This document shows positions 2,329 to 20,586 of a DNA stretch of 24,649 nt, piece by piece. Position 1 is the first letter of the stretch; each line of letters begins with the position of its first letter. The notes under the pieces are model-generated. The model saw only the letters and a program-made list of their open reading frames with translations, searched no databases and was not told the DNA's origin. Made by a program: the position numbers and the translations under genes. The stretch is from a virus: IMG/VR virus record IMGVR_UViG_3300009514_000087, positions 1 through 24,649 of that record; one strand, written 5' to 3'.

Positions 2329-5300
2329 ATGGCCGGTATGATCCCACATTTTTTACGATACATCCTTGTTCTCAAGAGGCCAAGGCTGCGGGGTGGAAAT
2401 TTTGCCTATACTGGCTCTGGCACGCTCAATATTGGAGGATCAGCCGGAGTTCAATTCACGGTCCTATATGTCGGCTCCGGTACACTAAACATTGGAGGGA
2501 CCGTCGGGGTCTCAGTTAGTTACCACTATATTGGCTCTGGAGCCATCGATATCGGTGGTCAAGCCGATATCCAGATCAGCTACACCTACAACGGTTCCGG
2601 TACGATCAATATCGGTGGTCAAGCTGATATTCTGGCCAATTATATTTACAGTGGTTCGGGTGGATTGACTATCTCTGGTTCTGCCGGCATTGTAGCTAGT
2701 AATTACAGCTACACTGCTAGTGGTTCGGGAGGAATCGTAACTGGTGCGGCGGCTGTCGCTTCGACCTACTTTACCTATATCGGGTCAGGTGCTCTCAATA
2801 TTGGCGGTAGTTTCACCTCGCAGACCAACTTTACCTACACCGGCTCCGGTACATTGAATGTCGGCGGAGACGCTACAGAAACGCCGGTACTTAACTATTC
2901 CGGTTCTGGTACAATTAACATTGGTGGACAGTCCAACCTACAAGTAAATTATGTCTACATCAGTTCTGGAACCATCAATATCGGCGGACAAGCCGAACTT
3001 CAGATAAATTACGTCTACACCGGCTCTGGGACGCTTAATATCGGTGGTAATGCTGAAAGTCGAACAAACTATAGCTACGCTGGTTCTGGTACGCTCAATA
3101 TCGGTGGCGACGCTGCTGAAGAGCCATGCTTCAACTATTCAGCTACCGGTGGATTGACGATCAGTGGTAGTGCTGGAATAACTGTAAGCTACAATTACGC
3201 AGGTTCTGGAACATTAAACATCGGTGGGGATGCTACTGAAACTCCCATCTTTAGCTACACCGGTTCTGGAACCATCAATATCGGCGGTGACGCCACTGAA
3301 GAGCCATGCTTTAGTTATTCTGCTGCCGGCGGGCTAACGCTTTCCGGTTCCGCCGGAATTATAGCCAGCAACTACAGCTACACAGCCACGGGCAGTGGTG
3401 GGCTTATCACTGGGGCGACGGCCATTGCTTCTACCATATTTAGCTATATCGGCTCTGGGACATTAAATATCGGCGGCAGTTCTGGGTCGCAGACAAACTA
3501 CAGCTATACAGGATCAGGTACGCTCAATATCGGTGGCGATGCTGCTGAAGAGCCATGCTTCAACTATTCAGCCACTGGTGGGATAACAATCACTGGCTCC
3601 GCTGGACTAAGAGTTAACTACAACTATACTGGGTCGGGAACTCTCAATGTCGGTGGAGACGCTACCGAATCTCCAATATTTACCTACACTGGATCGGGGA
3701 CGCTCAACATCGGTGGCGACGCGGTTGAAGAACCGTGCTTCAATTATTCGGCCGCTGGTGAATTAACGATCACTGGCTCTGCCGGACTAAGAGCAGTTTA
3801 TATCTATACCGGATCAGGAACGTTGAATCTATCCGGTTCAGCAAATACTCCAGGTCGCTTTACCTACGATGGCTCTGGAGCCATCAATATCGGCGGGACT
3901 GCTGGACTAAGAGTTACCTACTACTATACAGGCTCTGGAACACTCACTATTGGCGGAGAGATTCCAGCAGGCAATTTCACTTACACCGGCTCTGGTACGC
4001 TTAATATTGGCGGGTCTGCTGGAGTTCAGTTTAGCTTAACTTACACAGGATCAGGAACCCTCAATATCGGCGGAGATGCAGCCGAAGAGCCTTGCTTTAA
4101 TTATTCTGCTACAGGTGGATTAAATCTTTCTGGTTCCGCAGGAATTGTAGCTAGCAACTACAGCTACACGGCCACAGGCAGTGGTGGACTTATCACTGGT
4201 GCGGCGGCCATCGCTTCTACCATATTAAGCTACACTGGATCAGGTACTCTCAATATCGGTGGTGACGCCGCAGAAGAACCATGTTTCAGCTACTCTGCAA
4301 CAGGTGGCTTGGTAATCACAGGTCAAGCAACTGTCCAACTACAGTTGAGCTACACGGGATCGGGTACTCTCAATATTGGTGGCGATGCCGAAGAACAACC
4401 AACATACACATATACTGGTTCTGGAGCAATCAATATTTCTGGATCGGTCGATACACAGAAAGATTACACCTACACCGGTTCGGGCACGCTCAATATCGAT
4501 GGTAGTGCTGGCATTCAGGTAAACTACACGTACACCGGAAGTGGCACAATTTTCCTCTCTGGTCAAGCTGGGCTCAATGAAGGTAACGACTTTACGTACA
4601 ATGGCTCTGGCACAATAAACATTAGTGGAACTGCCGGAGTCCAAACCAACTATACGTATACGGGCTCAGGAACACTGAGTGTTAGCGGATCAACAGACGT
4701 TGTAGCCACATACAACTACGGCCAGACTGAAGGTGGACTTAATATCGGCGGCGACGCAGATGAAACAATAGTCTTTACCTACACAGGTTCCGGAACCCTC
4801 AACATCGGTGGCGATGCTACTGAAGTCCCAACATTCATTTATATTGGTTCCGGCACGCTCAATATTGGCGGTGATGCCGCCGAAGAGCCTTGCTACAACT
4901 ATGCAGCATCGGGTACTCTCACCATTGGTGGAGACGCTACCGAATCTCCAACTTTCTACTATGTTGGTTCCGGAACACTCAATCTCTCCGGACAAGCCAC
5001 CACTTCTCCCGAGTTTACTTACATAGGCTCAGGGGCTCTTACCATTGGTGGAGATGCAGGTGAAGAACCTTGCTTTAGTTATTCTGCTACGGGCGGGCTA
5101 ACGCTTTTCGGATCAGCCGGCATTGTAGCTAGCAATTACACATACACCGCTAGTGGTTCAGGAGGAATTGTAACTGGAGCGGCGGCTGTCGCTTCGACCG
5201 TTTTCTACTATGTCGCTACTGGTGGGCTCGTCATTGGCGGAGATGCAGTTGAAGAGCCTTGTCTCACTTACGTCGGATCAGGGCAAATTACCATCGGCGG

Positions 5301-6606
5301 ACAAGCTGGTGTATCTGTTAATTACACCTATGCTATGTCTGGCGGGATCATAGTCGATGGTGATCCAGGCGATAACTACATTCCGAATTACATCTACGGC
5401 CAGACTCAAGGTGGATTAAACATCTCGGGTGAAGTCAGCCTTGGAAGTAACTTCACCTATATCGGCTCTGGCGGACTTGTCATTGGCGGAGCAGCGACAA
5501 TCATTATTGTCTACTACTATGTTGGCTCCGGAACACTAAACATCGGCGGACAAGTAAGCATTGCTACCAACTATGTTTACGGAGCAACCCAAGGTGGACT
5601 CCTCATAGATGACGGAGAAGCAACAGTCTCGGCGAATTATGTCTACGGCCAGACTCAAGGCGGACTAGTGATCGGCGGAGAAGCCAATGCATCCGCTACA
5701 TTCACATACACCGGATCAGGCACACTCAATATCGGCGGCGATGCTACAGAAGAACCATGCTTCTCTTATGTTGGAAGCGGTGGCCTTGTCATCTCTGGCG
5801 AAGCTCAAAATATTGTTGTCAACCGCAACATTACTGTTGGCGGTACGCTCTATCTCGGTGGAGACCCAGGAAGGTTCACCACTTACATCTATGGGCCAAC
5901 TCAAGGCGGGCTTATCATCGGTGGATCAGCCGATGCGGAATATGTTGCCCCTGGACTAGCTGGCGGAACTCTCGTTCTAGGTGGAACAGTTGGAATTATC
6001 CAAGTACGTCCACTCTTCCGATATTCTGGATTGGTATGCTTAATTATTGGCTCTCTCGGTGTCTCCGTTAAAACCTACCGCACAAAACAGATCAAATGGA
6101 AACTTGGAGACAAAGTTCAAATCAAAGGTCGTAAAGGAACCTATACAATAAAGAGTATTTGCTCTCGTGGGAGCACCATTTACTACACGTTAAATAATGG
6201 CATAGAACGCCCTGAGTATTGTCTCGTCACTCCTTCAGAGAATAACAAGTGTCTTATTAAGGATTGGCAAAAGATCAAACAAAATGCCTTGGAGGCAATA
6301 GAAAAGTTAAATGCCATTCCTCCAGAGAATATACCCCCCAGGGCTATGTACGCAAGGTTTAGCCTCGGAGAAAAGGTACTAGCTAGACCTGACTACTTTA
6401 AGGGAAAGCCAAGCAATATCGTTAAGATTTGTCTCACAAGTAATCCTTGTGCTATGTACACGCTTAACGACGGGAGAACCTTCTCAGAAGAACAATTACT
6501 GCGGCCAAGCGAAGCATTAGCTTTCAATACCTTGAATTGGCAAGACAAAAAAGATCAGGCCATTGATCGAAATATGAAGCTAATGGGCATGTTAGGTCAA
6601 GATTAG
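2329..6606 (+). CDS. Giant tandem-repeat protein (about 60 x 20-residue repeats) with duplicated C-terminal SH3/KOW-like modules
   Basis: 1425 residues, starting at ATG 2329 with GGAG 7 nt upstream. Residues 1-25 are a short basic, hydrophobic head (HFLRYILVLKRPRLR). Residues about 26-1250 are about 60 repeats with consensus YTGSGTLNIGGDA plus 6-9 variable residues. Each unit begins with Tyr and carries SGxLxIGG, as expected for a beta-solenoid or beta-helix fibre. Ten units contain the variant EEPC with one Cys each. Others are YGQTQGGLxIGG, or ATGGLTLSGSAGIVAS paired with TGSGGLITGAAAIAST. Residues about 1255-1425 differ entirely: Lys-rich, and apparently a tandem duplication. Each copy has (K/S)LG(D/E)KV, then a YTLN(N/D)G strand, a YCLVTPSE or QLLRPSE end, and a Trp/Lys helix. 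I infer a long tail fibre or surface adhesin; the C-terminal modules could anchor it or bind a ligand. It could also be a host-attachment scaffold. The repeat family is not one I can name. Confidence 0.85.
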   Translation: MAGMIPHFLRYILVLKRPRLRGGNFAYTGSGTLNIGGSAGVQFTVLYVGSGTLNIGGTVGVSVSYHYIGSGAIDIGGQADIQISYTYNGSGTINIGGQADILANYIYSGSGGLTISGSAGIVASNYSYTASGSGGIVTGAAAVASTYFTYIGSGALNIGGSFTSQTNFTYTGSGTLNVGGDATETPVLNYSGSGTINIGGQSNLQVNYVYISSGTINIGGQAELQINYVYTGSGTLNIGGNAESRTNYSYAGSGTLNIGGDAAEEPCFNYSATGGLTISGSAGITVSYNYAGSGTLNIGGDATETPIFSYTGSGTINIGGDATEEPCFSYSAAGGLTLSGSAGIIASNYSYTATGSGGLITGATAIASTIFSYIGSGTLNIGGSSGSQTNYSYTGSGTLNIGGDAAEEPCFNYSATGGITITGSAGLRVNYNYTGSGTLNVGGDATESPIFTYTGSGTLNIGGDAVEEPCFNYSAAGELTITGSAGLRAVYIYTGSGTLNLSGSANTPGRFTYDGSGAINIGGTAGLRVTYYYTGSGTLTIGGEIPAGNFTYTGSGTLNIGGSAGVQFSLTYTGSGTLNIGGDAAEEPCFNYSATGGLNLSGSAGIVASNYSYTATGSGGLITGAAAIASTILSYTGSGTLNIGGDAAEEPCFSYSATGGLVITGQATVQLQLSYTGSGTLNIGGDAEEQPTYTYTGSGAINISGSVDTQKDYTYTGSGTLNIDGSAGIQVNYTYTGSGTIFLSGQAGLNEGNDFTYNGSGTINISGTAGVQTNYTYTGSGTLSVSGSTDVVATYNYGQTEGGLNIGGDADETIVFTYTGSGTLNIGGDATEVPTFIYIGSGTLNIGGDAAEEPCYNYAASGTLTIGGDATESPTFYYVGSGTLNLSGQATTSPEFTYIGSGALTIGGDAGEEPCFSYSATGGLTLFGSAGIVASNYTYTASGSGGIVTGAAAVASTVFYYVATGGLVIGGDAVEEPCLTYVGSGQITIGGQAGVSVNYTYAMSGGIIVDGDPGDNYIPNYIYGQTQGGLNISGEVSLGSNFTYIGSGGLVIGGAATIIIVYYYVGSGTLNIGGQVSIATNYVYGATQGGLLIDDGEATVSANYVYGQTQGGLVIGGEANASATFTYTGSGTLNIGGDATEEPCFSYVGSGGLVISGEAQNIVVNRNITVGGTLYLGGDPGRFTTYIYGPTQGGLIIGGSADAEYVAPGLAGGTLVLGGTVGIIQVRPLFRYSGLVCLIIGSLGVSVKTYRTKQIKWKLGDKVQIKGRKGTYTIKSICSRGSTIYYTLNNGIERPEYCLVTPSENNKCLIKDWQKIKQNALEAIEKLNAIPPENIPPRAMYARFSLGEKVLARPDYFKGKPSNIVKICLTSNPCAMYTLNDGRTFSEEQLLRPSEALAFNTLNWQDKKDQAIDRNMKLMGMLGQD
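2404..6075 (+). repeat. In-frame tandem repeats, about 60 units of 57-66 nt
   Basis: Reading units from each Tyr gives 60 consecutive repeats, mostly 20 codons, with 19-, 21- and 22-codon variants. Protein sequence is conserved but synonymous codons vary widely, so most duplications are old or selected to diverge. Exceptions are recent-looking. About 65 nt spanning the EEPC unit are almost identical near 3090 and 3517. A two-unit block occurs four times (2647-2775, 3316-3444, 4102-4230, 5080-5208). The repeat keeps frame throughout, with no stops. Confidence 0.9.
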
Positions 6607-8489: not shown

Positions 8490-9377
8490 TTAGTCACCTA
8501 TTATTGTTGCTTTCCGACTTCCACCTAGACCAGTTACGCCTTGGTTAAGTCTTAACGTCAAACACTTAGAAGCCCCACCTGACTTCATAAATTCGCTCAT
8601 CTCAACTTCAATAACATCAAACCCATACTGAGTAAGCATGTCTTTTGTTGCTGGGCATCTAGTGGGCATAATCACGTAGTCTCGCAAGACAATCGCATTG
8701 CAAGCAAAGTTTTTAGCTTCGGCCTCAGGTACTGGAAGTACATGGTGATTCCGAAGAAGTATTGCTTTAGATGAGTCAGAGAAGGCAGGAAGGTAGGCCA
8801 TTACGAGCGTATCTCTAAGAGGGCAGAAGCAAGTATCAAGATGATAGAATCGCTCGTCACAAAGATGAAGTCCGTAGACTTGACAATCTATAACGGATTG
8901 CAGTAGCTTCGGCACTTCTGGAGATGTTCTGAACCCAAAACCGCAATAAACTGCGGGGCTTTGCCTTCTAAGGGGATTGAATACTTCGTTGGCCACCAGA
9001 GTGTCGCCGCCCCCTTCGTATGGATAATTAACCATGTGGATTTTTTTGAAGTAGGGGTTGCCATTCTGGCCGCAGAAATTCCTTATCGATTTGAGCCAGT
9101 GTTCTTCCTCAACTTGCCGTTCTGGGAACTTGAAGGTAGAGACAATAAAGTTGTCATCCCAAGCAAACCCAGCATTCGCTGCGAAAACTCCATCTGGATG
9201 TGGTACGTCAAACTCAAAGACTTCTGCATTCAACTTGAGAAGCACATCCTTAAGGTTTCGCCATTGCGTTAAAGCGGCTTTATTGGTTACGCTTTTTTCT
9301 TCTGGGTGCATCCATGGGTTGATACGATAGGTTACATCGAAGTGCTCTGCCGACGACATCAGGATGTGTTCATTCAT
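8490..9377 (-). CDS. DDAH/amidinotransferase-like (guanidino-group-modifying) enzyme
   Basis: 295 residues of the arginine deiminase-amidinotransferase superfamily, a five-bladed propeller fold that attacks guanidino groups through a Cys thioester-like intermediate. Visible landmarks: INPWMHP at 19-25; HPDGVFAANAGF at 60-71 with Asp62; EGGGD at 121-125, giving the acidic residue Glu121; YHLDTCFCPL at 178-187 with catalytic His179; and SGGASKCLTLRL at 266-277 with nucleophile Cys272. The Glu/His/Cys arrangement fits dimethylarginine dimethylaminohydrolase or related enzymes. Substrates could be methylarginine, arginine, agmatine or another guanidine; sequence alone does not decide. The ATG overlaps the previous stop by 4 nt (ATGA). 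It is an unusual accessory metabolic gene for a phage. It could modify host arginine pools or a guanidinylated compound. Confidence 0.8.
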   Translation of the reverse strand: MNEHILMSSAEHFDVTYRINPWMHPEEKSVTNKAALTQWRNLKDVLLKLNAEVFEFDVPHPDGVFAANAGFAWDDNFIVSTFKFPERQVEEEHWLKSIRNFCGQNGNPYFKKIHMVNYPYEGGGDTLVANEVFNPLRRQSPAVYCGFGFRTSPEVPKLLQSVIDCQVYGLHLCDERFYHLDTCFCPLRDTLVMAYLPAFSDSSKAILLRNHHVLPVPEAEAKNFACNAIVLRDYVIMPTRCPATKDMLTQYGFDVIEVEMSEFMKSGGASKCLTLRLNQGVTGLGGSRKATIIGD

Positions 9378-10062: not shown

Positions 10063-10866
10063 ATGAAACGACCAAACACCAATGACTTCAGGGACTTTTT
10101 TGAGGGACAATATGCCAACTTCGGGCTCGATGACCAAGAGAAAAGGGCGAAAGAGCCATATATGTCTGAACTCGACCGCGATCAACCCGTCAAAATGACC
10201 GAGGTAAAGACGATCACGGATACCCTCAAAGAGCATCAGATTGGAGATAAACTATCCTATTCTCCCTTTATCGACGAAGTGCGATGGGGAGTTGGGGCCG
10301 GAGCCCTCCGCTGTGGAGTTCAGCCTGATATGCACTTGCAGCTTGACCGACTAGGGATCGACCTGCAAGGAGAGCCTGTTTGGATCACCAAGAGACTCTA
10401 TCTTCTCTCCCGCGAAGGTTACGGCGGACATGAATCCGTCGTAGTTGAGGAGGTGCTCGACGAGTTAGATGAAATCAACAACACAGCTATCGACAGTCCT
10501 AAGTCAACATTTGAAGACTTGAAATACATGGTTCATTCTATGGCCTATCGGATGAGAGCTACGGCCAGGGACATATTCCTTTTCAATGGAATCAATAAGC
10601 TCAACGAAAATGAGTATATCATCCGCTTTGGCGTTCGAGGGCAAGGTGTTGCCGCCCCCGATCAAAGTCGCGTCCTTGAAAACCATACAATCGTTGGATT
10701 TACGCCAGACTCTGGCCGCATCCATTTGATCAACCGTAATGTCGAATCAAGTATCGGACGAATGGAATGGTTGATACGGCCAGCCGACACGAATGTTTAT
10801 TTCTTCCCAACGCAATCCATAGATGAGATGATTGCGATTATGGGCACAACAATGAAATACTACTAG
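10063..10866 (+). CDS. Unknown protein, 267 aa (possible phage structural or assembly protein)
   Basis: Not recognised. I chose ATG 10063 because a GTG at 10042 lies inside the promoter-like box and has no ribosome-binding site. The ATG itself has only a weak GGA. The protein begins with a polar segment (MKRPNTNDFRDFFEGQYANF). A mixed domain follows (FIDEVRWGVGAGALRCGVQP, then WITKRLYLLSREGYGGHES), then a helix with VVEEVLDELDEIN, a KYMVHSMAYRMRATARDIFLF segment, and a C-terminal half of strands (YIIRFGVRGQGVAAP, MEWLIRPADTNVYFFP). It has one Cys and no signal peptide. It stands alone on the plus strand between two minus operons under its own late-type promoter, which suits a virion component. 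Inference only. Confidence 0.75.
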   Translation: MKRPNTNDFRDFFEGQYANFGLDDQEKRAKEPYMSELDRDQPVKMTEVKTITDTLKEHQIGDKLSYSPFIDEVRWGVGAGALRCGVQPDMHLQLDRLGIDLQGEPVWITKRLYLLSREGYGGHESVVVEEVLDELDEINNTAIDSPKSTFEDLKYMVHSMAYRMRATARDIFLFNGINKLNENEYIIRFGVRGQGVAAPDQSRVLENHTIVGFTPDSGRIHLINRNVESSIGRMEWLIRPADTNVYFFPTQSIDEMIAIMGTTMKYY

Positions 10867-11210
10867 AGCACAAAAAAGAGCGACAAGTCCTTGAAGTGGT
10901 CAGGCTCGGGTTTTTCATTAAGTAATCTTTCGATTAGTTCAATATCGAAAAATGAATTCCTAGTGTAAATCAAGGATGCATTTATTTCATCTTTTTTTGC
11001 TAGCTTGATTATCTTCCGCCCAAAAAAATCACGATATTCAAGGTGAGTAAAACGGACAGGAGCGGTTTCATCTAGCCATTTTGGAATCTTAAAGACATAG
11101 CCAGTTACTTTTTTGGATTTTCTGCCTATGTGTTTTTTACCGAATTCGGAATAATACTCCGTTCGTCCACCCATCATTTGACTAGTGTAAGCAACCAATC
11201 TAACTAGCAT
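10863..11210 (-). CDS. Unknown basic protein, 115 aa
   Basis: Not recognised. The ATG lies 1 nt after the stop of the zinc-ribbon gene, with AGGGA about 8 nt upstream. Strongly basic in the first two-thirds (GKKHIGRKSKKVTGYVFKIP, then GRKIIKLAKKDE), with a C-terminal acidic helix (DIELIERLLNEKPEPDHFKD). It could bind nucleic acid, but no motif proves it. Its stop codon interlocks with that of the convergent plus gene: both use the palindrome CTAG at 10863-10866. Confidence 0.7.
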   Translation of the reverse strand: MLVRLVAYTSQMMGGRTEYYSEFGKKHIGRKSKKVTGYVFKIPKWLDETAPVRFTHLEYRDFFGRKIIKLAKKDEINASLIYTRNSFFDIELIERLLNEKPEPDHFKDLSLFFVL

Positions 11211-11211
11211 T

Positions 11212-11574
11212 TCACACGTCCCTAAAGGCTCTATATGGAAGTTGAGGCCACCATTCTTGATAGCGATAAAGATGATAGGTAGCGGGAATCATTTTTTCTA
11301 GCTCGTTACAGAGATCAGAACTATGGGAATTGTAAGCCATCTTGTAGAGCCTAATAAGTGACTCAAGCGAAAGCTCCGGATTGGATTGTCCTTCCGCACA
11401 AGGAGCAGTGTCGAGATCGTACTCGGAAAATTCAGGCAACAAATCATCAACCCAAAACTTCATTCTGCACTTCCAGCAGATCGTCACTTCGATTTCCAAT
11501 ACCGGCCCAACTTCCTCACCAATATACACCCAGTTTGTAGCTCGACATACCGGGCAAGAAGGATTAACCCACAT
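11212..11574 (-). CDS. Unknown zinc-ribbon protein, 120 aa
   Basis: Two CxxC knuckles at residues 7-10 (CPVC) and 33-36 (CWKC), separated by a strand-turn-strand (NWVYIGEEVGPVLEIEVTI), form a likely zinc ribbon. The rest is acidic then helical (LSLESLIRLYKMAYN, SSDLCNELEKMIPATYHLYR), ending in a Trp/Tyr-rich tail. The start ATG 11574 has AGGTG 5 nt away and lies 8 nt after the upstream stop. Zinc ribbons of this kind occur in transcription or nucleic-acid-binding proteins and in enzymes; the role here is unknown. Confidence 0.75.
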   Translation of the reverse strand: MWVNPSCPVCRATNWVYIGEEVGPVLEIEVTICWKCRMKFWVDDLLPEFSEYDLDTAPCAEGQSNPELSLESLIRLYKMAYNSHSSDLCNELEKMIPATYHLYRYQEWWPQLPYRAFRDV

Positions 11575-11582
11575 AAGAGCAC

Positions 11583-12290
11583 CTATTCAAATTCATGACT
11601 GAATTCTTGCCTAAAATACGCTTCGACTTCGGGTGTGATCGCTGGACGGTAAAGTTCGGTATCGATGAAGAAAAAAGCATCCGTGAGCAAGTTTTTTTCG
11701 GTAAGCCATTCCTTAAGCATCGGCGACAGCAAAACGTAATATCCACATACTTGTTGTGTTGCTACCCATCTAATTAAACTACGGCCCTTGAGTGCCTTTT
11801 GTACGTTTTCATTGTTGAGTACCTTTAGCTGTTTTTGTAGGAATGCCTTTGTTTCGTCTAGCCTTACTTTCACCTTTTCCCACGAGATGGGCTTTAGTTG
11901 ATTCTCAACGCTCTTTTCTTTTTCGAGCTTCTCATATCTTCGTTTCCAGACCAACCATCGCCGCCACGCTTTTTCGCCGACTAGGATGTTTGGTTGAATC
12001 AGTGGAATCTCACCTGTCTTCTTTCCAATATCTCGCATAACATCCATTTGTGCTTGAATATACATGCGATATTCATACAATTCCAATTTCCCTCGCAGAT
12101 TCATCAGAAGGGTATGACAATACCGGAAGGTGGTACATTTCCGAGGATCACCTTTAGGCATACGAATATGGAAGTATTCAGGGAAATTCTTTTTGGCGTA
12201 CTCTTGATACAATAACATCAACTTGAAGGCGATAGCTTCATCATTGCTCATGTTGTAGTCAAGGATTAACTCAAGTTCACGTTCGAACAC
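11583..12290 (-). CDS. Unknown basic helical protein, 235 aa
   Basis: Not recognised. It begins with GTG 12290 because AGGAG sits exactly 6 nt upstream. Mostly helical and rich in Lys, Arg, Trp and Tyr (MNLRGKLELYEYRMYIQAQM, AWRRWLVWKRRYEKLEKEK). The central Lys/Glu stretch at about 118-165 could be a coiled coil. N-terminal part: RELELILDYNMSNDEAIAFK. No catalytic motif or Cys pair. First gene of the three-gene minus operon and divergent from the DNA polymerase across a structured non-coding gap. The codons for GRSLI (11772-11786) are perfectly complementary to a piece of the RNA candidate in that gap. Confidence 0.75.
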   Translation of the reverse strand: MFERELELILDYNMSNDEAIAFKLMLLYQEYAKKNFPEYFHIRMPKGDPRKCTTFRYCHTLLMNLRGKLELYEYRMYIQAQMDVMRDIGKKTGEIPLIQPNILVGEKAWRRWLVWKRRYEKLEKEKSVENQLKPISWEKVKVRLDETKAFLQKQLKVLNNENVQKALKGRSLIRWVATQQVCGYYVLLSPMLKEWLTEKNLLTDAFFFIDTELYRPAITPEVEAYFRQEFSHEFE

Positions 12291-12758
12291 TATGGTCTCC
12301 TCACTCTATGTATCGACTCAATTGACTAAAGCAATACAGGAGAAATCTCCGATACTAATACTAACTCCTTTGAACTCCTATTAACTACAAATCTTGGGTG
12401 GGAACACCTTACATTCCCTTAGTAACTTCGGCCAGTACCCGCTAAAGTGCTATTGAACAAAACCTAGTGACATGAGTCTCCTCTCATGGGTCCGTGGGAA
12501 TCAGTAATCCACATCACTAGTAACCGAGGTATCCTCTCTCTATGTAAAGTGCCAGGACGGGGAGAAGGTTAGTAGGTAAGAATAGGTGCAATTAAACTAC
12601 GGCCAGTGACTAGTAAGTAAACCATAAGGAATACAAGACTGGTCACATTAAAGGACTCACCTCTCTAGTCCTGGCGACTGGGTACGCACTTAGGTTACTC
12701 TCTAGTGTTTTTTGTGTTTGTTCAACGTTAAAGTGATGCTTTTGTCGATCATCATGGT
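12291..12758. other. 468-nt non-coding divergent gap with many inverted repeats
   Basis: No credible gene on either strand. Short CTAGT/TCTC-rich elements recur (CTAGT five times between 12465 and 12707, CGGCCAGT twice). Hairpins: GGAG-AAAT-CTCC (12339-12350), and CATGAG/CTCATG with a 6-nt loop (12471-12488). A nested fold follows (separate entry). On the minus strand the leader of the gene at 12290 contains TCGATACATAG, a possible promoter. The gap could be a regulatory RNA locus, a replication origin beside the polymerase gene, or both. I saw no tRNA and no credible group I intron core. Confidence 0.6.
12515..12713 (+). ncRNA. Candidate structured RNA ending in a U-tract
   Basis: Three nested stems can be read by eye. 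Outer: CACTAGTAACC (12515-12525) with GGTTACT-CTCT-AGTG (12693-12707), 11 bp with a 4-nt bulge. Middle: CCAGGAC (12552-12558) with GTCCTGG (12668-12674). Inner: GTGACTAGT (12606-12614) with ACTGGTCAC (12638-12646), 9 bp with one G-U. Six Ts follow the outer stem at once (12708-12713), as at an intrinsic terminator, so the RNA would lie on the plus strand. The unpaired linker before the inner stem contains AATTAAACTACGGCC (12590-12604), complementary to the mRNA of the gene at 11583-12290. The 5' end and promoter are not located. Confidence 0.5.
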
Positions 12759-14153
12759 ATGGACGACGTAAACGCCAAGTTTCACCAACTCGCTGCTTCA
12801 GGTGAACCGCTTTACTTCCGGTGTGAGCCGGATATTCTTGACTTCACGCAAGAATACGAAGGTAAGCTGTTGGTGTCGAATAGTAATGAAACGCTTGAAT
12901 TTTCATTTGGTGATGATCGTCGTGATCGTAACATACTGAGTGCCTATACTATGATCGTTAATTCGATCTTAGGTGATGGAACGTTTACCATCACATGGGA
13001 TATCAAGAGGTTATTCAGTTATCTCTTTTTTCGAACTCATCGACGTAATTTGCCGTTGGGGTCTATTTTTGACCTAAAATACGCAGAGCGGTTCATGGGG
13101 CAGGATGCGGATCGTCGGAGACAGAGGCCACCGAACTACGAAGAGGCTGTTCGGCGTTTCAAGTTCATTCAGAGTCCTTCTGTTTATCGGATTAACCGCG
13201 AACTTTATTTACCCTTAGCGATCAAAGTGCTGCCAATTCTTGAAACGAGAGGGCTTCATTTTGAACGGGATGAGGCATTTCATGCCGAAACTCTGTATGT
13301 TTCCTACGACATTGAAGCTCAGGTCAATGGTCGGTTATCGAGTACAAAGCCCAACGATAATTTTCTAGTTGCACACAATTTGAGTCCAGAGATCAAGCGA
13401 CGCCTGGTTCCTCGTCAAGAGGTGAGCAAGCAGATCGATGTATCGAAATTACCTAGCTCGAAACGGTTTGTGCTATTGGATTTCAAGCACATGGAAGTGT
13501 CGCTTATTCAATGGCTCACAAAGGACGAGACCCTAACCGAGATGCTCGGCAAGGATGTTTATAGTGAAATCTATACGGCCTTGACTGACGGCATTTGCGA
13601 TTCACCAAAGAAGCGTGACTTCGCCAAGAAGGTGTTTCTATCTGTGATTTTCGGGCTAGGTGTCGGGAATCTGTCGAAAGACCTAAAGCTACCGCCGAAA
13701 ACTGCCGAAATAGTAATGGGTCGGCTGAAAGCCAAATTTTCGACCGCTATGGCGTGGCTGCAAGCTAAACAGGATGATCTGGCCGCAGACTCTATTGCGA
13801 TTGATAGCTTTGGTCGCCGCCGCGAAATCCTACCAGACAAGGCTTACCTCCGAAGGAACTTCGAGGTACAAGCTCCCTCTGCCGTGATTTGTTTGTTGAA
13901 GTTGGTGGAGTTATTTGATGCTCCGTTATCTCCCGATTCCAACGACCCAAAGCGGAAACGATCTCTCGCGGATCATCTGCTTTTGAATATTCATGATGCT
14001 TACGTTTTGGAGGCTACTTCCGACCAAATGAAAGAGGTAGTGTCCAAAGCAAAGGAAGTTCTGGAGTCACCGATTAAGTGGTGTCCAGGTTTACAACTGA
14101 AGGTCTCGATAAGTGTTGGCGAACGTTTAACCGACATGAAGAAGATTCTGTGA
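12759..14153 (+). CDS. polA: Compact family A DNA polymerase
   Basis: 464 residues. Polymerase landmarks: GRLSST at 191-196; motif A LLDFKHMEVS with Asp241; motif B at 286-299 (R286, K290, then L294 and F298 at the positions of E. coli Pol I Phe762 and Tyr766); GRRREI at 352-357; motif C IHDAY with His412-Asp413. The first about 150 residues (TITWDIKRLF, FDLKYAERFMG) keep the outline of a 3'-5' exonuclease domain but lack its metal-binding acids. Shorter than usual phage PolA (about 550-700 aa), so an exonuclease-dead or trimmed replicative enzyme. An in-frame stop lies at 12729, making ATG 12759 the first start. No ribosome-binding site is visible, unusual for this window. Leu at the 762 position is a subtype known from virioplankton PolA surveys. 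Confidence 0.9.
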   Translation: MDDVNAKFHQLAASGEPLYFRCEPDILDFTQEYEGKLLVSNSNETLEFSFGDDRRDRNILSAYTMIVNSILGDGTFTITWDIKRLFSYLFFRTHRRNLPLGSIFDLKYAERFMGQDADRRRQRPPNYEEAVRRFKFIQSPSVYRINRELYLPLAIKVLPILETRGLHFERDEAFHAETLYVSYDIEAQVNGRLSSTKPNDNFLVAHNLSPEIKRRLVPRQEVSKQIDVSKLPSSKRFVLLDFKHMEVSLIQWLTKDETLTEMLGKDVYSEIYTALTDGICDSPKKRDFAKKVFLSVIFGLGVGNLSKDLKLPPKTAEIVMGRLKAKFSTAMAWLQAKQDDLAADSIAIDSFGRRREILPDKAYLRRNFEVQAPSAVICLLKLVELFDAPLSPDSNDPKRKRSLADHLLLNIHDAYVLEATSDQMKEVVSKAKEVLESPIKWCPGLQLKVSISVGERLTDMKKIL

Positions 14154-16557: not shown

Positions 16558-17139
16558 ATGGATTACATTGTAGAGAGGTTTCGTTTAACCGAAACCGAAT
16601 GGGCGAAACTCGACGAGTTATTCGGAGACTTGGCTCATTATCAGGCTTGGCAGCTTCTGAAGAAGAATGTCAAGAACAACCATACCCATGATGTTGAAGA
16701 CATTGCTCAAGAGCTTCGTTTTTCGATCATTCGGGCTGGTTGCTACTATAAGCGTCAGGTGTACCTTGAGGAATGTTTGGCTACAGCTAAGCTTTACGTC
16801 ACGGACCCTGTGGTGCTTCAGTTAGTTACAAGGTTGGACAAATTATGGCAAGAGAGAACTCGCCATGGAGCCAACCGCCAGAGATTTGGAGAGCATCAGG
16901 AACAGTTGCTAGAGAAAGTTATCGAGGAACATGTTCCAGAGCGGATGCGTCCTTCAAAGGATCGACCTTTACAGATCGACAACAAATTTACGACGTACTG
17001 TAAAGCGATCACCTGGAATTGCCAAAAAAGTCTTGGCAAGAAGATTACACGAGAAAAAAGCCTTCGTTCAGGCATGGTAAGTCTTTCAGAGTATGACTAC
17101 CTTGTATCTACAAATGGCGTGATCTCATGTAACAATTAA
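16558..17139 (+). CDS. Candidate phage late sigma factor (gp55-like), 193 aa
   Basis: GGAGG ribosome-binding site 5 nt before the ATG. Residues 27-61 (YQAWQLLKKNVKN, then DVEDIAQELRFSIIRAG) follow the sigma region 2 pattern: helix, kN, then D(V/I)ED(I)xQE, as in T4 gp55 and sigma-70 core-binding helices. A later block (residues 144-180: FTTYCKAITWNCQKSLGKKI, REKSLRSGMVSLSEYD) looks like the downstream basic and VSLSE part of such factors. T4 gp55 is about 185 aa, so length fits. It would direct RNA polymerase to TATAAATA-like late promoters, several of which occur in this window. Alternatives are another helical DNA-binding protein. It directly precedes dnaB. Confidence 0.5.
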   Translation: MDYIVERFRLTETEWAKLDELFGDLAHYQAWQLLKKNVKNNHTHDVEDIAQELRFSIIRAGCYYKRQVYLEECLATAKLYVTDPVVLQLVTRLDKLWQERTRHGANRQRFGEHQEQLLEKVIEEHVPERMRPSKDRPLQIDNKFTTYCKAITWNCQKSLGKKITREKSLRSGMVSLSEYDYLVSTNGVISCNN

Positions 17140-19180: not shown

Positions 19181-19760
19181 TCCTACGGATATTACTGACT
19201 TCGATTTGTCAGTTGGAGAACTCGAAGAACGGATTCTCTTTTGGGTTCTGGCCGCAGGAAAAAATGGTAAACAAGCTGCGGCCAGCCTTGAGCGTCTTTG
19301 CCGTATGATTTGTCCAGATCGTAGTGAATGGGAGAGGTCTCCTTTTGCCGTGATCGGCTGGAGAGTGAGGAGAGGGCCGCCAAAGCTTTCTGAGTGGCTT
19401 CAGTCGGCTGGAATTGGGTGCTTCAACCTGAAAGCCGAATACATCATTGATCTTATTCATTCTGGGATCAACCTCCAGACTTGTACCGTAGATGATCTCC
19501 AATCTATCAAGGGTATTGGGCCAAAATCGGCTCGATGTTTCTTAATACATAGTCGGCCCAACCAACGGCTGGCCGGATTGGATCGACATCTCTTGCATTT
19601 CATGCGAGACCGGGGCTACGTTGTGCCTAAGCAAACGCCCCAGTCAAACAAGAAATACAAAGAGATCGAAGCCTTAGCTTTAGAGGTGGCTGACAATCTC
19701 GGTCTGACGCCAGCCGAATTTGACCTCGGTGTATGGAGAAAGTATTCAGGCAATGAATGA
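19173..19760 (+). CDS. HhH-GPD DNA glycosylase/AP lyase
   Basis: 195 residues from ATG 19173, overlapping the previous stop by 8 nt (ATGATTGA). The helix-hairpin-helix is at 109-124 (LQSIKGIGPKSARCFL) with Lys118, and the catalytic Asp is in LDRHLLHF (Asp137), the pair that makes bifunctional glycosylase/lyases of the endonuclease III/OGG class. The N-terminal helices (ELEERILFWVLAAGKNGKQA) and the segment FAVIGWRVRRGPPKLSEWLQ fit the rest of the fold. No 4Fe-4S cluster Cys set follows. Substrate unknown: oxidised or deaminated bases, or a modified base used by phage or host. A repair or anti-restriction role is inferred. Confidence 0.78.
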   Translation: MIDPTDITDFDLSVGELEERILFWVLAAGKNGKQAAASLERLCRMICPDRSEWERSPFAVIGWRVRRGPPKLSEWLQSAGIGCFNLKAEYIIDLIHSGINLQTCTVDDLQSIKGIGPKSARCFLIHSRPNQRLAGLDRHLLHFMRDRGYVVPKQTPQSNKKYKEIEALALEVADNLGLTPAEFDLGVWRKYSGNE

Positions 19761-20586
19761 GCACAATTCGAATCGTAAAATTACGCCTCTCGTTAGAACC
19801 TTTTTTTTCGTTTTCTTTCTAACGACGACCTTCGGGTATGCATTCTTAATGGGTTTAGCGTTCTTTTCTGCTTTTAAGACTGAACGTGATCCATTTGAAT
19901 CCTTTGATTACGGCCAAATCCCCCAAATGGAGCTTCGTTTGCCTCCCGACGTGGAGAATGAATATCCTATTTACAATTACGATATCTCAAAGAGATGTCT
20001 TTCTGCGAGTTGTCGGCTGACTACGGATAGAAGTATTGGCAGCGGCACAGTTTTCAATATCGATGATGAATATGTTTGGATTCTCTCGGCTGGGCATGTC
20101 GTAGAAGGTTCAACTGTAGTTCTGGCGGAATTTTGGCGATCTGGTTCGCCTAGTTTTTTTATGAATGCCGAAGTGGTTTGGTATATGTTACATCCAAGCC
20201 CTTGTGAAGATTTGTCTATTCTTCGAGTGTTGAAAAGTAAGTTTTCCGAACTAGGCCAACCGCTCCCGTATGTAATGCCTTTAGCTTCACCTAAATTCAA
20301 AATCAGAGTTGATACACGAGTGATGTCAATGGGTTGTGAGCAGGGGTATTCGCCCACGATGATCATTGGTTTTGTCAAGCGTGTAGATGAGAATATTTTT
20401 TACATGGTTCCAGACACGATGTACGGTCGCAGCGGATCGGCAGTGCTTGATGAAACAGGCACTCGAATTATTGGCGTTGTAGTTCGGAGAGATGGGATTT
20501 GTGTTAACTTGAACTGCATTTATAGACTAACAGGATGGAACAAGAGTTACTCTGATAAAGAAAAAGAAGGAGTACCGAATGGATAG
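19753..20586 (+). CDS. Membrane-anchored trypsin-like serine protease
   Basis: 277 residues from ATG 19753, overlapping the glycosylase stop by 8 nt (ATGAATGA). One membrane segment (about 16-40: FFFVFFLTTTFGYAFLMGLA) follows a short basic N-terminus, so the protease domain would be outside the cytoplasm. Catalytic triad: SAGHVV with His115, CEDLSILRV with Asp153, YGRSGSAVLD with Ser227. Chymotrypsin/DegP-type fold without a PDZ domain. Six Cys in the outer part could form disulfides. Target unknown: host envelope proteins, virion maturation or a defence factor. Such an enzyme in the middle of replication and nucleotide genes is unusual for a phage. Confidence 0.82.
   Translation: MNEHNSNRKITPLVRTFFFVFFLTTTFGYAFLMGLAFFSAFKTERDPFESFDYGQIPQMELRLPPDVENEYPIYNYDISKRCLSASCRLTTDRSIGSGTVFNIDDEYVWILSAGHVVEGSTVVLAEFWRSGSPSFFMNAEVVWYMLHPSPCEDLSILRVLKSKFSELGQPLPYVMPLASPKFKIRVDTRVMSMGCEQGYSPTMIIGFVKRVDENIFYMVPDTMYGRSGSAVLDETGTRIIGVVVRRDGICVNLNCIYRLTGWNKSYSDKEKEGVPNG

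Follow-up and report, generated by a model that had tools for sequence, protein, structure and literature searches.

The window, that is, the whole stretch of DNA analysed here, is a 24.6-kb virus record which represents a fragment from a clade of huge phages. Within it a gap of 468 nt (12291-12758) separates two divergent genes, one on the minus strand, called div here, and one on the plus strand that encodes a family-A DNA polymerase (Table 1). The gap contains no open reading frame of 60 aa, as the initial annotation stated in calling it gene-free, and its neighbourhood encodes the DNA polymerase, DnaB and a helicase. The div protein has homologues of 26-39% identity in the same position in dozens of huge-phage loci and is predicted by AlphaFold to adopt an all-helical fold (pLDDT 90.7), but this fold gave zero matches to the PDB at E<=0.001 and suggests no role. 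Elsewhere the window carries a DDAH/arginine-deiminase-like gene (8490-9377, minus strand), homologues of which occur in L007, L008 and L021, and a gene for a 1425-aa protein (2329-6606, plus strand) with seven stretches matching phrog_11522.

The nearest GenBank record, reached by tblastn with the window polymerase and div, is LR756511, an uncultured phage of 595 kb, which has in common with the window the helicase, div, the polymerase, g16 (16558-17139) and DnaB. A blastn search of the window in phages gave no relatives and neither did single-sequence protein queries in IMG/VR; relatives in IMG/VR were recruited with alignments of g16 and the helicase, some of them on contigs of 380-530 kb. 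No g16 protein was found in prokaryote genomes. Across these relatives the divergent div/polymerase pair is conserved and flanks the same gap. In one of them, L010, a TnpB-like ORF, apparently degenerate as judged by eye from its translation, lies between div and the polymerase at ~19448-19951.

What, then, occupies the gap? Comparison of gap against gap by blastn connected many loci, some of the matches being coding (for example L067/L091), and a MAFFT alignment of ten gaps contained long conserved words together with paired regions. A covariance model built from five sequences (R1) matched eight more sequence-distinct loci at E<=0.011 and two others at 0.013 and 0.41, all of them within the gap and all on the polymerase strand. 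With the models R2 and R3 some 20 sequence-distinct phages have a match in the gap on the polymerase strand, with E down to 1e-27, and in an R3 search of 915 kb every match below E 0.1 falls in the gap, unrelated ones starting at ~0.2. Weak R2 matches in the right gap and strand of L013 and L081 are left out of the member count, and L046 (E 0.17) is taken as a probable member.

The comparison of homologous phages that had been proposed as a check on the initial annotation yields strong compensatory change in the stems of the family, with both sides changed in 23 of 24 pairs. The covariation score is 0.642 for 15 sequences and 0.647 for 20, against 0.209-0.219 for shuffled and at most 0.125 for slid controls, in alignments fitted to the structure; for an unfitted MAFFT alignment (A8) it is 0.420 against 0.186 (0/500). 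The outer junction stem, Pout, has 94.9% of its cells paired in alignment A13, with compensatory changes present. Outside the P2 hairpin there are 30 G-U cells and 5 A-C cells, an imbalance which indicates the plus strand, although the alignment was fitted to a plus-strand model and the count is hence partly biased. It is thus almost certain that the div-polymerase gap of huge phages is home to a new family of structured RNA.

From 5' to 3' the family RNA opens with the P2 hairpin, whose loop is of the GUACCC type; an A-rich linker then leads to a three-way junction, after which come the stem P5, a variable middle, the 3' strand of a pseudoknot and a 3' motif of the type ACUCGGU, which in some members is followed by UGCGCAUA. 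Within the junction Pout surrounds the hairpins P3 and P4, and in some members also P3b. The P5 loop is the site of the 5' strand of the long-range pseudoknot, which begins +23 to +31 nt past the junction in 14 of the 17 members tested, the window included; for L119, L079 and L008 the best helix that the program gave lies elsewhere. The predicted strands covary, as in GCCGACT/AGTCGGC, GATGCTGACTC/GGGTCAGCATC and GATGCTATGG/CCATAGCATC, with TGCCAGGAC/GTCCTGGCG in the window. A single pseudoknot helix often falls short of significance by itself, and the case for the putative pseudoknot is made by the steady offset of its 5' strand together with the compensatory changes. Counted from P2 to the 3' motif, the length is 391-408 nt in 10 of the 14 members measured; outside the window it ranges over 345-519 nt. 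The RNA core is enriched in G+C within A/T-rich genomes.

In the copies found, the family keeps to one locus. A DNA pattern of the RNA core scanned over IMG/VR, with gene context ignored, returned 70 loci, of which 69 were new and many were repeat samplings of the same phages; 34 of the new loci were confirmed by the model, each with at least 84 bits. In 33 of these 34 the polymerase lies downstream at a distance of 365-540 nt and on the same strand; the remaining locus, L283, is a stretch of 1.2 kb in which a polymerase was not detected. The distance between div and the RNA varies from 157 to 1112 nt, and across 42 records there is at most one significant copy per record. With the same pattern in prokaryote genomes, the matches listed are chance ones by the model (best E 0.62), and blastn found no GenBank phage bearing the RNA. 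Sequences that look structured but go unrecognised by the models lie in L059 (~3121-3400), in the gaps of L113 and L116 and in L010 (18202-18650); the L059, L113 and L116 gaps have AATGGGCCGAC...AGCGGCTA in common. They may represent more RNA types, likewise divergent, at this locus.

Table 1. Genes, RNA elements and sequence features at the div-polymerase gap of the window
Feature	Position	Strand	Remarks
div gene	11583-12290	-	235 aa; left flank of gap
DNA polymerase, family A	12759-14153	+	464 aa; Pfam DNA_pol_A 2.6e-21
RNA, conserved part from P2 to 3' motif (best estimate)	12421-12692	+	R3 match, pseudoknot, 3' motif, fold z; may extend to ~12713
P2 hairpin region, loop conserved; AACTTCGGCCAGTACCCGCTAAAGTG	12424-12449	+	aligned to P2 by R2/R3
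Three-way junction	12463-12520	+	Pout 12464-12470/12514-12520; P3 12471-12476/12483-12488; P4 12494-12497/12509-12512
CATGAG/CTCATG hairpin	12471-12476/12483-12488	+	in sequence
GTAACC/GGTTAC stem	12520-12525/12693-12698	+	in sequence
P5, TCCTCTCTCT/GGGGAGAAGG	12532-12541/12559-12568	+	one mismatch; from sequence inspection and analogy with group A P5
GCCAGGAC/GTCCTGGC stem	12551-12558/12668-12675	+	8 bp, perfect
Pseudoknot 5' strand, GCCAGGAC	12551-12558	+	in P5 loop; +24 nt past junction
Pseudoknot 3' strand, GTCCTGGC	12668-12675	+	partner of 12551-12558
AATAGGTGCAATT	12581-12593	+	from inspection; alike: L046 AACAGGTGCAATT, L074 AATAGGTACGCT, L088 AATAAGTACACT
Hairpin GTGACTAGT/ACTGGTCAC	12606-12614/12638-12646 (12606-12646)	+	local, 9 bp, one G-U
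3' motif, GACTGGGTACGCACTTA	12676-12692	+	cf. L079 GACTCGGTGTGCGCATA
GGTTACT...CTAGTG, then T6	12693-12713	+	possible 3' end
T6 tract	12708-12713	+	in sequence

The window's own copy is a divergent one. R2 and R3 both assign it to 12421-12523 on the plus strand, in the right register, and for R3 this is the best match on both strands of all 24.6 kb, albeit with a weak E of 0.09; in the 915-kb search its E is 3.4, within noise. The window's fold shows the junction, and relatives have the same architecture. From P2 to the 3' motif the window RNA measures 267 nt compared with a typical ~400, its middle domain being shorter. A single IMG/VR contig contains the 17-mer GGCCAGTACCCGCTAAA (12430-12446), within the L046 gap homologous to that of the window, and GGCCNGTNCNCGCTA is common to the window, L007 and L046. 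The window pseudoknot comprises 9 pairs (p=0.017 against the shuffled segment). A descriptor of junction, pseudoknot and motif, written with the window in view, is found in 4 of 1000 shuffles, and the junction descriptor alone in 69 of 1000. Could the window gap lie outside the family, its stems being due to chance? The E of 0.09 and the 6.9% of shuffles that contain the junction would allow it, but place, strand and register are all right, and the pseudoknot offset, the 3' motif and the 17-mer shared with L046 only speak against it, so that we regard such a coincidence as improbable and the window gap as very probably holding a divergent member of the family.

This outcome revises the initial annotation in part. 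Every stem listed there is located in the sequence of the gap, and the proposal of a structured plus-strand RNA is supported, but not as ~200 nt of nested stems from 12515: by the best estimate the RNA starts near 12421. The proviso that it might be longer if the 5' part belonged to it was well placed, this part contributing the best-supported core, namely a hairpin (~12421-12450) and the junction. The 12551/12668 stem is a long-range pseudoknot and not one of several concentric helices. The outer stem with its U-tract was not seen as a terminator in relatives, and a terminator scan of the window's gap found none. In its outermost part (12515-12519 with CTAGTG at 12702-12707) the outer stem is in competition with Pout, which has the better support. 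The word CTAGTG occurs at 12464-12469 and 12702-12707, and its sole CACTAG partner is 12514-12519; the junction stem and the 3'-terminal stem before T6 are mutually competing and make a possible switch. The repeated words CTAGT and CGGCCAGT are both present as described, the recurrence of CTAGT owing partly to the strands of Pout, and one copy of CGGCCAGT is the conserved P2 region.

An excess of fold stability over shuffled sequence is lacking for the gap as a whole (12291-12720, z -0.31) and is mild for 12505-12718 (z -2.27, 3/200). For 12421-12713, the segment whose ends follow the homologues, z is -2.46 (1/200 shuffles), and the minimum free energy fold of this segment includes the hairpin 12606-12646. 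The minus strand of the gap folds no better than the plus strand (z -0.11). Fold energy is weak evidence here and the comparative evidence is decisive.

In one subclade the gap is filled by a protein gene. This gene, g387, of ~390 aa, is present in LR756511, where it encodes 387 aa, and in three other distinct records; it lies at 10204-11367 on the minus strand of L002, with homologues in L003, L004 and L005, exactly where relatives have the RNA. The covariance models found no RNA in the gap of LR756511. The g387 protein contains the polymerase-like motifs NIDIxNSQPLL, FFRETFFGK and IHDS, and gave neither a Pfam match nor a credible match in the PDB. RNA and g387 are mutually exclusive, in that no RNA is found in g387 records and no g387 in the RNA-bearing records searched, which suggests a testable functional swap. 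Divergence could be another cause of the RNA's absence from g387 records, and records are perhaps incomplete.

How would such an RNA be transcribed? Sigma-70-like sites are enriched upstream of it (mean 6.24 compared with 5.58 in shuffled sequence; p<=0.03 in 10 of 21), and L069/L070 have TTGACA-TATAAT 18-19 nt ahead of P2; no sigma-70-like promoter was found in the window's gap. Sites directly before the polymerase are weakly enriched (5.84 compared with 5.55); L007 has a strong promoter-like site exactly where the polymerase starts, and that of L073 is good. Since promoter-like sites stand both upstream of the RNA and at the polymerase start, the sequences suggest that in some relatives the RNA is likely to be transcribed apart from the polymerase.

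With regard to function, the site beside the polymerase suggests that the RNA takes part in copying the phage genome or in its control, and our leading guess, a tentative one, is a replication-linked RNA of the origin or primer type. In such a scheme the RNA would be produced at or near a replication origin and would fold, whereupon its 3' end or a bound protein might prime or license DNA synthesis; this synthesis would be performed by the adjacent family-A polymerase, in the manner of ColE1 RNA II or of T4 origin transcripts. A fitted GC-skew change point lies <=10 kb from the gap in three of six large records (G018, G001 and G004) and elsewhere in the other three (G016, W01 and G007). G001 has the change near the gap, with g387 present and the RNA absent, and the skew is therefore a feature of the locus, not of the RNA, and for the most part it tracks the strand of the genes. 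In several records third-position skew shifts the same way in plus-strand and minus-strand genes, but the coding strand changes too. GC skew is thus not taken as proof of an origin. The tail between the 3' motif and the polymerase is A/T-rich (0.69 compared with 0.62, p=0.002), as promoters would be too. Together the skew, the tail and the neighbouring genes are circumstantial evidence for a replication link, for which the mutual exclusion of the RNA and g387 also speaks, and the support for the origin-associated transcript envisaged by the initial annotation is likewise circumstantial. Against this reading are the weak model score of the window copy and the negative scans for a sigma-70-like promoter and a terminator in its gap, and the fixed site just upstream of the polymerase is equally compatible with a leader.

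A possible alternative, to which we give rather modest weight, is a structured RNA that stands alone and whose job has nothing to do with replication, as a scaffold, a ribozyme or a regulator of host or phage proteins, which has become lodged in a conserved gap. The discrete size, the G+C-enriched core, the promoter-like sites upstream and the variable distance from div all fit such an RNA, which would be comparable to other large phage RNAs without a known function; yet in the copies found it is never apart from the polymerase. Of the further roles raised in the initial annotation, that of a regulatory RNA is possible and that of a decoy is without support.

A long 5' leader acting in cis to control how the downstream polymerase is expressed would account for the constant strand and spacing, and the promoter enrichment at the polymerase start is weak enough for read-through to be possible. 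We nevertheless consider it doubtful, as L007 and L073 have promoter-like sites at the polymerase start itself, an RNA of ~400 nt containing a long-range pseudoknot would be large as leaders go, and the g387 subclade, which is without the RNA, retains the family-A polymerase. That the element works as DNA, through origin hairpins or protein-binding sites, its folding being incidental, would suit a divergent intergenic region with an A/T-rich tail and, in some genomes, a skew boundary, but is very improbable given the compensatory change in the long-range pseudoknot and the tolerance of G-U with A-C rare, the latter partly biased by plus-strand fitting.

Returning to the replication-linked reading, its strongest form would have a new class of RNA act directly in huge-phage replication initiation, as a primer or as a replisome RNA, with a polymerase-like protein having taken over its site in one subclade; this form is speculative and on balance unlikely. 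What is at hand is a strongly covarying RNA family without an Rfam relative, at one locus, in phages whose contigs reach 381 kb and which are known almost solely from metagenomes. A conserved RNA tied to a DNA polymerase gene offers a handle on how huge phages start replication.

Among known systems, ColE1 RNA II is a primer RNA that is extended by a family-A enzyme, DNA polymerase I. The likeness, which is an analogy only, is that of a structured transcript beside a replication function, with a polymerase of family A as the neighbour in the phage; the gap RNA differs in having no Rfam similarity to RNA II and in adjoining the polymerase gene itself, whereas the antisense RNA I and the cleavage site are features of ColE1. 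T4-type R-loop origins combine a promoter, a transcript and an A/T-rich unwinding element, and several relatives have a promoter-like site, the RNA and an A/T-rich tail in the same order; we know of no conserved pseudoknotted RNAs among the T4 origin transcripts. Group I introns, RNase P and tmRNA are likewise large RNAs with long-range pairing. A group I intron, considered on account of P7-like GACTA/TAGTC words in the window, was rejected, there being no credible Rfam match at E<=10; there is also no split gene, and ARAGORN found no tRNA or tmRNA in the window. As the initial annotation recognised no RNA family, so Rfam is without a match to the gap; for the window and its homologues nothing reaches the gathering threshold, and chance matches alone appear at E<=10. 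No published account of the gap RNA was found in the literature searched, which covered few subscription journals. Finally, GOLLD, ROOL and OLE are large ornate RNAs, structures of which are given in PMC12286853. The resemblance is that of long, complex, conserved RNAs linked to bacteria or phages, while the gap RNA has no Rfam match to them, another size and other gene neighbours. The RNA family itself is thus new, and the kind of function that it performs may prove a known one.
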